From assembly GCA_023015935.1 (NCBI GenBank), contig JALKAY010000002.1, forward strand, positions 372,001 to 436,000: a stretch of DNA of 64,000 nucleotides, read 5' to 3'. The translations under genes and the position numbers were made by a program. Below are positions 48,659 through 51,150 of the stretch, one piece after another. This DNA is from Flavobacteriaceae bacterium F08102 (GTDB lineage: Bacteria; Bacteroidota; Bacteroidia; Flavobacteriales; Flavobacteriaceae). Position 1 is the stretch's first letter. Each line of letters opens with the position of its first letter. A model generated the notes under the pieces. The model saw only the letters and a program-made list of their open reading frames with translations. It made no database searches and was not told the origin of the DNA.

Positions 48659-48785
48659 GATGTAAAAAAATAAGTGTCTTTAATTCAGTTTGTTATCTTT
48701 AAATTTTGGAATAATATTCAAAACAGTTGTATTATTCTCTTAAGAATGCTAAATTTGTTCAAAAGGTTTAGATTCTTTGTTATAG

Positions 48786-49076
48786 ATGAGTAATATTCTC
48801 GAATTGGTTGACACTCTGCAAAGTAAACTTGACAAGTTGCTTGTGAAGTATGAGTTATTGCAGATAGAAAACCAGCAGCTTTTGGAAAAAAGTGAAAAAT
48901 TAGTTCAAAAAGTAGATCAACAACAAAAAGCAATTTTGGAAGTTGAGAAGGACTATGAAGCGTTGAGGATTGCGAATTCCATTGTAGGCAGTAAAGAAGA
49001 TAAGCATATGACCAAGCTTAAAATAAATAGCTTAATACGCGAAATAGATAAATGCATTGGGCAGTTAAGTGAATAG
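48786..49076 (+). CDS. small coiled-coil protein upstream of zapA, possible ZapB-like partner
   Basis: A 96-residue protein made almost wholly of heptad-pattern helix (about 5-65, rich in Leu, Gln, Glu and Lys). It has no signal peptide or membrane segment. It lies 8 bases before zapA and should be co-translated with it. In E. coli, ZapB is a short coiled-coil that links ZapA to the division apparatus. Conservation of a similar gene beside zapA in Flavobacteriaceae is my impression, not tested. I name no gene. Confidence 0.75.
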   Translation: MSNILELVDTLQSKLDKLLVKYELLQIENQQLLEKSEKLVQKVDQQQKAILEVEKDYEALRIANSIVGSKEDKHMTKLKINSLIREIDKCIGQLSE

Positions 49077-49084
49077 GTGGAAAG

Positions 49085-49375
49085 ATGAGTGAGAAACTTA
49101 AAATAAAAGTTACGATTGGAGATCGCGTTTACCCACTGACCATTAATAATGCAGGAGAAGAGGAGGGAGTGCGTAAAGCGGTAAAAAAAATTAATGATCT
49201 CATTAAGAAGTTTGAAGAAAATTACGAGGTGAGAGATAAGCAAGATGTATTAGCCATGTGTGCGTTACAATTTGCCTCATTACAAGAGGTGAAGACTATT
49301 TATAACGAGCAAGATGGAGAAGAGATAGAAGAAAAATTAACATATTTAAATGCGGTTTTAGATTCGCATTTATAA
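49085..49375 (+). CDS. zapA: cell division protein ZapA
   Basis: ZapA bundles FtsZ filaments at the division ring. The 96-residue protein has the N-terminal beta-alpha part (KIKVTIGDRVYPLTI, about 5-19) and the block EEGVRKAVKKINDLIKKF, then a C-terminal coiled coil (about 50-95). The length matches the family. It follows the coiled-coil gene by 8 bases. The probable 6S RNA begins 26 bases after its stop. Confidence 0.92.
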   Translation: MSEKLKIKVTIGDRVYPLTINNAGEEEGVRKAVKKINDLIKKFEENYEVRDKQDVLAMCALQFASLQEVKTIYNEQDGEEIEEKLTYLNAVLDSHL

Positions 49376-49401
49376 GGACGTTCTTTACATAAAACAATAT
49401 T

Positions 49402-49565
49402 GCCTACATTAGTTACTTGTTCAATAAACTCAACATTATTTAATTAAAAAGGGTGAGTTTCAGTTAGTAAAGCGAGCCGTCTTGAACGGATACTTGATCA
49501 ACTGGGTAACCCTAAACTTGTATATAAAGGAGTTTATAAAACCCTTTCTAATGTAGGCTTTTTTT
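49402..49565 (+). ncRNA. ssrS: structured RNA between zapA and rny, probable 6S RNA (Flavobacteria type)
   Basis: A long rod-like foldback can be drawn by eye. Closing stem 49402-49412 with 49548-49558 (11 bp, perfect), then 49424-49431 with 49530-49537 (8 bp), then an A/T-rich internal bubble (49432-49449 and 49514-49529). Above it are 49450-49454 with 49509-49513, 49461-49465 with 49500-49504, 49466-49469 with 49491-49494, and an apical hairpin 49477-49480/49486-49489. Seven T follow the closing stem (49559-49565), consistent with an intrinsic 3' end. A rod with a large central bubble is the 6S RNA hallmark, and ssrS lies after zapA in Enterobacteria as well. Alternatives are an attenuator or leader for rny. 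No TAnnTTTG was seen just upstream. Confidence 0.72.
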
Positions 49566-49584
49566 ATAGTTAAAAATTACAAAA

Positions 49585-51150
49585 ATGGATGGATATATGA
49601 TGCCAGCATTAGCTGGTGTAGTGGGAATAATAATCGGATTTGTCATTGCTAAATTGCTTGAAAAAAGCAAAGGTTCAATGCTTATAAACAATGCTAAAAA
49701 GCAATCAGAAACTCTATTAAAAGAGGCAAGGATAGATGCCGAAGCCCTAAAAAAAGACAAAGTATTACAGGCAAAAGAAAAATTTATTGAACTTAAGGCA
49801 GAACACGAAAAAGTGATTCTTAGTCGTGATAAAAAAGTTTCTGAAGCCGAAAAGCGAATTCGAGAGAAGGAGTCAAGAATCTCTCAAGAACTTGATAGAA
49901 CGGCTAAATTGAATAAGTCATTAGAAGCTAAAAAAGCCGATTATGATTTTCGTTTAGAATTTATTGATAAAAAGCGCAAGGAGACCGAAAAGATGCATAA
50001 GCGACAAGTGGAGCAACTTGAAGTGATTTCAGGTTTGTCTGCAGAAGAAGCTAAAAAGGAATTGGTTGAATCGCTTAAAGAGGAAGCGAAAACAAGTGCG
50101 ATGGCAATTATTCAGGAAACAGTTGAAGAGGCTAAACTCACCGCACAACAAGAAGCCAAAAAAATTATTTTAAATACAATTCAACGTATCGGTGTTGAAC
50201 AAACCGTAGAGAATTGCGTGTCGGTGTTCAATTTAGAATCAGATGACGTTAAAGGAAGAATTATAGGCCGAGAAGGAAGGAATATTAGAGCTATTGAGGC
50301 TGCAACGGGGGTTGAAATCATCGTAGATGATACACCTGAAGCAATCATTTTATCGTGTTTTGATCCAATCCGTAGAGAAATCGCACGTCTCTCTTTACAC
50401 AAGTTAGTGACCGATGGAAGAATTCACCCAGCGCGAATTGAAGAAGTGGTGGCTAAAACAAGTAAGGAAATCAATCAAGAAATTATAGAAGTTGGAAAAC
50501 GAACGGTGATTGATTTAGGAATTCATGGACTACATCCTGAATTGGTAAAAGTAGTAGGTCGAATGAAGTATAGATCATCGTATGGTCAAAATTTATTACA
50601 ACACTCACGTGAAGTAGCCAATTTGTGTGGTGTGATGGCGGCAGAATTAGGTATAAATCCTAAAATTGCAAAACGCGCTGGTCTATTACACGATATTGGT
50701 AAGGTACCAGAAACAGAAAGTGAATTACCACATGCCTTATTAGGAATGGAATGGGCACAGAAATACGGTGAAAAACCCGATGTGTGTAATGCCATTGGTG
50801 CGCACCATGATGAGATTGAAATGAAATCGTTGTTTGCACCCATTGTGCAAGTTTGTGATGCTATTTCTGGTGCTCGGCCAGGAGCTCGTAGACAAGTACT
50901 CGATTCTTATATCCAACGTTTAAAGGATTTGGAAGATGTTGCTTTTGGGTTTAATGGGGTCGAAAAAGCTTATGCAATTCAAGCAGGTCGTGAACTTAGA
51001 GTGATTGTTGAAAGTGAAAAAGTGGATGATGTTAAAGCTTCTGAATTATCATTTAATATTTCTCAGAAAATACAAAACGACATGACTTATCCAGGTCAAG
51101 TGCGGGTAACAGTTATCCGAGAAACACGAGCGGTAACGATTGCAAAATAG
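49585..51150 (+). CDS. rny: ribonuclease Y
   Basis: RNase Y is the membrane-bound endoribonuclease that starts mRNA decay. The 521-residue protein has an N-terminal membrane segment (about 4-25), a long coiled coil (about 30-200), a KH RNA-binding domain with [22 protein letters not shown], and the HD phosphohydrolase domain with [20 protein letters not shown], and the C-terminal [19 protein letters not shown]. Length and order match the family exactly. The start ATG 49585 lies 20 bases after the T-run of the upstream RNA. Confidence 0.97.

Follow-up and report, generated by a model that had tools for sequence, protein, structure and literature searches.

A probable 6S-Flavo RNA gene between zapA and rny in Flavobacteriaceae and the boxA-like block that precedes it

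What does the gap between zapA and rny in a flavobacterial genome encode, and how could its product be made? In the window, that is, the whole 64,000-nucleotide stretch of the Flavobacteriaceae bacterium F08102 genome analysed here, a preliminary description drawn from the letters of the DNA had seen a single rod-like fold in this gap and had proposed a 6S RNA. 6S RNA resembles an open promoter to RNA polymerase and sequesters the housekeeping holoenzyme, acting as a global brake on transcription; it is released when a short pRNA is synthesised by the polymerase with part of the 6S RNA as template. The features of the locus are as follows.

48727..48757, + strand: candidate promoter TTG-N20-TAnnTTTG ahead of zapB, proposed for zapB-zapA-6S-rny (sequence match only)
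48786..49076, + strand: zapB-like gene (ORF; Pfam ZapB 20.5 bits, below the cut-off of 31.5)
49085..49375, + strand: zapA (Pfam PF05164, 61.2 bits)
49378..49391, + strand: boxA-like block ACGTTCTTTACATA, 2 nt past the zapA stop (core conserved in relatives)
49402..49565, + strand: probable 6S RNA (6S-Flavo), full rod plus U-run (Rfam, fold, covariation, 155.5 bits with our model R1)
49402..49412, + strand: closing stem P1, 5′ arm (fold, covariation)
49548..49558, + strand: closing stem P1, 3′ arm (fold, covariation)
49424..49431, + strand: helix P2, 5′ arm (fold, covariation)
49530..49537, + strand: helix P2, 3′ arm (fold, covariation)
49427..49434, + strand: conserved AACTCAAC (the same in 36/36 aligned Flavobacteriales rods, present in 79/80 further loci)
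49428..49535, + strand: extent of the Rfam RF01685 match (P1 and P2 are left out of its structure line)
49559..49565, + strand: seven T directly after the closing stem, terminator-like (sequence; 5-10 T in 80/80 loci)
49585..51150, + strand: rny, RNase Y (ORF; RNase_Y_N, HD, KH; start codon 19 nt past the U-run)

Identity and structure of the RNA

The flanking genes named in the preliminary description were borne out by Pfam (PF05164 for zapA; RNase_Y_N, HD and KH for rny), and the fold that it had drawn by eye is real in each of its parts. The rod at 49402-49565 has a minimum free energy of -44.9 kcal/mol (z -4.65), compared with -28.0 +/- 3.6 kcal/mol for dinucleotide shuffles, none of which (0/200) folded as well. 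The 11-bp perfect closing stem consists of 11 Watson-Crick pairs between 49402-49412 and 49548-49558, the second helix of 8 pairs between 49424-49431 and 49530-49537, and seven T indeed follow the closing stem at 49559-49565. In the A/T-rich bubble, one strand has AACUCAAC and the opposite strand GAGUUU, both invariant in 36 aligned rods.

An Rfam search and a comparison of relatives for compensating changes, which the preliminary description had put forward as checks, both came out positive. RF01685 (6S-Flavo) matched 49428-49535 at 108.6 bits, above the gathering cut-off of 85 (E 2.6e-18 for the whole window); this is the only Rfam match at cut-off within the 64 kb, and the genome of the window (G000, 51 contigs) contains a single RF01685 match. 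The match exceeds the cut-off by 23.6 bits, spans the whole 108-position model and comes from a family of the same phylum. The Rfam model, which goes back to Weinberg 2010 (PMC2864571), starts and ends inside P2, and its structure leaves the two outer helices out, P1 and P2 being unpaired or outside, whereas the full rod described here is about 160 nt long. Our own full-length model R1 scored the window rod at 155.5 bits, the window sequence being among its 30 training rods. Bacteroidales-1 (RF01693), the Rfam description of which suggests a 6S RNA, gave a weak match of 21.1 bits over the whole model, and the SsrS model (RF00013) had no match in 49200-49800 up to an E value of 10.

Full rods were aligned from 36 Flavobacteriales loci, 30 of them from the family of the window (f1 in the following; f2 stands for the same order and f3 for the same class). 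On the 30 same-family rods, a 34-pair structure was paired in 99.1% of the cells, with double changes at 21 of the 34 pairs and in 113 cells, against 9.2 pairs and 30.9 cells in shuffles. Neither the pairing percentage nor the number of double-change pairs or cells was reached by any of 500 shuffles, and slid versions of the structure were 25-45% paired; the count of further pair types was unexceptional on these rods, 73 of 500 shuffles reaching it. For P1 and P2 taken alone, pairing was complete (100%) and double changes occupied 20 cells, compared with 2.8 in shuffles. A second set was fetched by ZapA similarity, independently of the RNA, as the best 80 of 569 loci; at least four of its genomes are also among those of the 30 same-family rods. 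The 6S rod was found behind zapA in all 80 of these best loci out of 569 (E 1.9e-17 or better). The whole structure was 97.2% paired there, with 266 double-change cells (0/500 shuffles reach this), figures that are favoured by the fitting of this alignment to the model.

The inner five pairs of P2 (AACUC with GAGUU) never varied on the 30 rods while the surrounding stems did, suggesting that the inner part of P2 is held by its sequence as well as by its pairing, as would be expected if the polymerase reads or contacts it. The conserved AACTCAAC at this place is a possible RNA-polymerase contact or pRNA template. The release of 6S RNA through pRNA synthesis in E. coli and B. subtilis suggested looking for an alternative 3′ hairpin. 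The candidate, AAACUUGU with ACGAGUUU, was rejected: it was without covariation (85.0% paired, compared with 84.8% in shuffles) and paired well in one genus only.

In its closing stem, central bubble and apical stem the RNA has the layout of the 6S class; E. coli 6S RNA (SsrS) likewise forms one rod that has a closing stem and, at its centre, a bubble. The likeness in position that the preliminary description had drawn with enterobacterial ssrS also held, since the order in E. coli K-12 is zapA-ssrS-fau: the RNA lies directly behind zapA in both, and is followed by fau in E. coli and by rny in the window. The 6S identity is thus supported by a curated covariance model, by covariation and by position, and 49402-49565 very probably encodes a 6S RNA of the 6S-Flavo family with 6S-type function. 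Its action as a promoter mimic would follow from family membership and from what is established for 6S RNA. Among relatives, evidence for pRNAs has been reported for the 6S RNA of B. thetaiotaomicron (PMC7366714), and an RNA detected in F. psychrophilum has been reported as 6S RNA (PMC9723704). The window RNA is a member of an already known family, and its surroundings are more interesting than the RNA itself.

Promoters and the boxA-like block behind zapA

The flavobacterial housekeeping -7 box is TAnnTTTG (PMC9723704), and TTG-N17-23-TAnnTTTG was searched as the full promoter pattern. Such a promoter lies upstream of zapB in 30/30 family loci (1.8% in shuffles); inside zapBA it occurred in one of the 30, between 6S and rny in none. 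In f2, the zapB promoter was present in 4/6 loci only. In the 80-locus set, it lies no more than 140 nt before the zapB profile start in every locus, at -76 to -90 in 78 and at -27 in two, and none of the 80 has a promoter from the zapB profile start to 60 nt past the zapA stop. Within 45 nt of the rod, TAnnTTTG or TAnnTTGY was absent in 80/80 loci, and a -7 box within 200 nt of the rod was found in four. As a control in 12 family genomes, TAnnTTTG was found before RNase P RNA in 11 and before tmRNA in six. Since the only canonical promoter found precedes zapB, the 6S RNA would be made within the zapB-zapA transcript, and we lean slightly towards the view that in Flavobacteriaceae it rides on this transcript.

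Little of the linker between zapA and the 6S rod is conserved apart from A[AC]G[CT]TC[AT]T, which was found in 30/30 family loci. Its core, [AC]G[CT]TC[AT]T, occurred in all 30 and in 1.4% of shuffled linkers, and it was present in 79/80 ZapA-chosen loci (best 80 of 569), starting no more than 9 nt from the stop in 78 of the 79. Among the other stop codons in the window, 1/50 had the core within 45 nt. This conservation of the block, which starts 23-29 nt before the rod in 30/30 loci, speaks for the first alternative, that the 6S RNA has a non-consensus promoter of its own and that the block is part of it. Two further observations are in keeping with it: 6S genes that lie away from zapA have a full promoter in f11 (2/2) or a perfect -7 box in f8 (1/3; f5, 0/1), and tmRNA, too, has no visible canonical box before it in 6/12 genomes. 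However, the block is too close to the rod for a -33 element unless the closing stem is cut into, and neither TAnnTTTG nor TAnnTTGY stands within 45 nt of the rod in the 80 loci. In addition, the block of f3 stands 0-6 nt past the zapA stop in 7/7 loci while the rod starts 31-124 nt past it, indicating that the block keeps its place relative to the stop codon rather than to the rod. We therefore consider a separate promoter possible, though rather unlikely.

The core of the block recalls boxA, which is expected from E. coli in the rRNA leader and behind 16S. The assembly of the window is without 16S, and the rRNA genes of relatives were used for the comparison: leaders were read in nine f1 genomes (G226, with a partial 16S, was left out), and, with the 23S start unlocated in 12 records, the 381-669 nt following the 16S end served as the 16S spacer. 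The rRNA leaders of 9/9 relatives contain [AC]GTTC[AG]T downstream of the rRNA promoter, and [AC]GTTCATTGACATATT stands behind 16S in 9/9. Judged on these relatives, the block shares its core with the rRNA boxA of its lineage. The gamma-proteobacterial boxA consensus is GYTCTTTAANA (PMC5725501), and exact matches to this consensus were found in 39/80 linkers; the block of the window differs from the consensus at two positions.

A full-length match to the rRNA boxA was not found with an ungapped weight matrix. As a detector of the block this matrix was rejected, the block of the window scoring -1.2 and ranking 1105 in the window; with it, 14/30 family linkers beat shuffles at p < 0.05. Because of these poor scores, the 6S block is taken to match the core of the rRNA boxA and not the whole element. 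A loose boxA motif was also rejected as a genome-wide marker, being not enriched in G000 (23 matches, against 29 in a reversed control). In comparison with known rRNA boxA elements (E. coli rrn; suhB, PMC5725501; leader-trailer, PMC10250234), the core is thus common with the candidates of the nine relatives, but the rest of the element departs from the rRNA version, the block follows a coding gene, and the NusB-S10 site is putative.

The block was found in 7/7 f3 linkers. It was found in 0/6 f2 linkers although 6S is present there, and among distant SsrS-like loci a boxA-like match stood behind zapA in 1/30 and was absent in 29/30. The linker between zapA and 6S in E. coli K-12 is 41 nt long, and by eye it contains no boxA-like block. 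Counted by locus, the block accompanies 6S in the gap in 40/62 loci, against 0/26 without 6S (Fisher 2e-9). Counted by family, boxA is present in most loci of 4/15 families with 6S, against 0/9 without (Fisher 0.26). Both counts leave out eight loci without zapA in reach (L056, L057, L060, L063, L068, L088, L094 and L095). In these comparisons, f13, f19, f22, f24, f27, f29, f32, f39 and f46 were counted as 6S-bearing by eye; f16, f26 and f34 have model matches in the gap, and f17, f28, f34 and f37 have genome-search matches. The 26 loci counted without 6S had no convincing R1 or R2 match. By these motif matches, the boxA-like block is characteristic of Flavobacteriaceae and f3 and occurs sporadically in other families.

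A second alternative takes the block for a nuclease processing site that frees the 6S 5′ end, perhaps for RNase Y. Some such site would be needed for the 5′ end if a promoter is absent, and the block is A/U-rich and rny is the next gene. The match to the rRNA boxA core in relatives and the fit to the published boxA consensus in 39 of the 80 linkers nevertheless make this reading improbable in our view. In the open-licence literature searched, no report of a boxA at a 6S RNA was found. As a separate observation, a boxA-like GTTCTTTGA stands directly before tmRNA at L277 and L284 (2/12 genomes; L284 by eye, outside the strict core).

The 3′ end, rny and a proposed biogenesis

The closing stem runs into 5-10 T in 80/80 loci (best 80 of 569). 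The start codon of rny, taken as the first ATG of the long frame, lies at a median of 19 nt past the end of the model match, and at no more than 40 nt in 72 of the 79 measurable loci. A G+C-containing stem directly followed by a U-run is the layout of an intrinsic terminator; here, unlike in ordinary terminators, the loop is the whole 6S rod. We give roughly even chances to the reading that the closing stem and U-run would serve as the terminator that makes the 6S 3′ end, with read-through supplying rny. A terminator with the 6S rod as its loop would make release of the RNA depend on its folding, and would link read-through to rny supply.

The preliminary description had set an attenuator against 6S RNA. 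The 6S half of this opposition was confirmed, and the two need not be mutually exclusive: the closing stem and U-run end 19 nt before rny. That the rod is no free RNA, acting only in cis as an rny leader or attenuator, would suit the short distance to the rny start (median 19 nt; 79/80 loci measured) and the lack of a canonical promoter between rod and rny in 30/30, yet it is highly improbable given the match to a curated 6S family, the existence of the rod away from rny in f11 and f8, and the F. psychrophilum RNA reported as 6S RNA (PMC9723704).

From conservation and position, the following biogenesis can be proposed. The 6S RNA would be made as part of the zapB-zapA transcript, from the promoter before zapB. 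As ribosomes leave at the zapA stop, the boxA-like block just past it would let NusB-S10 load antitermination factors, which would carry the polymerase across the untranslated stretch without Rho termination; the boxA complex may also keep the closing stem's 5′ arm close to the polymerase. The closing stem would terminate the RNA as considered above, and the 6S 5′ end would come from processing, which follows if the RNA arises within the zapB-zapA transcript. That the block loads NusB-S10 for the crossing to 6S and may hold the 5′ arm is a tentative suggestion, to which we give somewhat less than even odds. The whole chain of operon transcript, boxA antitermination and closing-stem terminator is unlikely to be right in every part.

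The spacing between block and rod bears on what the block would do. In a model for rRNA, NusB-bound boxA holds the leader strand at the polymerase until the trailer emerges, and the boxA-boxC spacing in Enterobacteriaceae is 18-19 nt, counted from the end of the whole boxA (PMC10250234). The distance from the end of the core to the closing stem is 17-20 nt in 56/79 loci, near that spacing, with the reservation that the 7-nt core is shorter than a whole boxA. A fixed distance from the rod everywhere was considered and discarded: it is nearly so in the 80 loci and not in f3. Since in f3 the rod start varies from 31 to 124 nt past the stop with the block at 0-6 nt, protection from Rho is a likelier shared role than tethering. 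Should the boxA reading hold, factors for rRNA antitermination would also serve an RNA that restrains the polymerase, coupling two opposing growth controls.

Gene order and spread of 6S RNA in Bacteroidota

The order zapB-zapA-6S-rny was found in 30/30 same-family (f1) and 6/6 same-order (f2) loci, i.e. in 36/36 Flavobacteriales loci, and zapB and rny profile matches were present at all loci of the 80-locus set (best 80 of 569). Over 296 genomes of the phylum, RF01685 matched in 37, of which only 13 reach the 85-bit cut-off; one of the 37, L042 (f5), departs from this order, its weak match lying elsewhere in the genome. Bacteroidales-1 (RF01693) passes its cut-off in two of the 296 sampled genomes, and the SsrS model (RF00013) matched in 42, none above cut-off. 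Of these sub-cut-off SsrS-like loci, 30 of the 42 were inspected, and 30/30 lie between zapA and rny. In a search of 20 distant-family loci, sub-cut-off SsrS matches started just behind zapA at L097, L099, L090 and L092. The zapA-rny gaps of L081-L102, together with L167-L196, contain SsrS-like 6S RNAs below the Rfam cut-off in several families of the phylum, and other zapA-rny gaps in distant families look 6S-like by eye.

In f3, a further model, R2, found a rod behind zapA in 7/7 loci, five of which are its training set; the two held-out loci gave sense-strand matches behind zapA, of 128.5 and 79.7 bits. No Rfam family matched any of the seven f3 rods at an E value of 0.5. These Rfam-missed 6S-like rods are at L044, L045, L049, L050, L051, L052 and L053, and in all five that were aligned the closing stem is of the CCG.../...GCGG type, a T-run is present and the bubble strand contains AAACTTAAC.

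No convincing 6S match was found with R1 or R2 in the zapA-rny gap of f4-f10 and f20. Elsewhere in the genome, f8 (L163, L164 and L165) and f5 (L042) have 6S-like rods with R1 scores of 35-57 bits; the antisense strand of the rod scores up to 38.2 bits with R1, and weak matches alone were not trusted. The f11 loci L031 and L032 each carry a Bacteroidales-1 6S preceded by a perfect promoter, TTG-N20-TAnnTTTG. Like the window RNA, both are picked up by R1, with 43 and 29.6 bits; they differ from it in having their own full promoter and, for L031, the sole f11 locus with neighbours listed, in lying behind what by eye is a dnaJ-like gene. Some lineages, f11 and f8, have moved 6S away from zapA.

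With Rfam cut-offs passing 13, 2 and 0 of the 296 genomes, 6S RNA in Bacteroidota is easily missed. It lies behind zapA in 30 f1, six f2 and seven f3 genomes and in 30 with sub-cut-off SsrS matches, which offers a simple rule for locating it: look between zapA and rny. No report of the zapA-6S-rny order in Bacteroidota was found in the open-licence literature, which was partly covered, and the order may already be in print.

For beta- and gamma-proteobacteria, the order zapB-zapA-ssrS has been described (PMC7641849). Together with zapA-ssrS-fau in E. coli and the zapA-6S order in Bacteroidota, this makes it plausible that the zapA-6S neighbourhoods of Bacteroidota and proteobacteria go back to a common origin, and the same post-zapA position in E. 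coli makes such an origin testable. A joint reading for Flavobacteriaceae and part of the other Bacteroidota would combine a promoterless 6S RNA from the zapB-zapA transcript, loading through boxA, a tethered 5′ arm, a stem terminator metering rny, and a zapA-6S order older than the split between Bacteroidota and Pseudomonadota. We doubt that this combination will hold as a whole; if true, it would mean that 6S supply, cell division, the ribosomal antitermination machinery and RNase Y are wired together.

At the distant loci L167, L169 and L177, an ORF that by eye is PheT-like stands before zapB, and pheT-zapB-zapA-6S-rny may have been the ancestral arrangement. The gene preceding zapB in the window encodes an M23 peptidase and is divergent.
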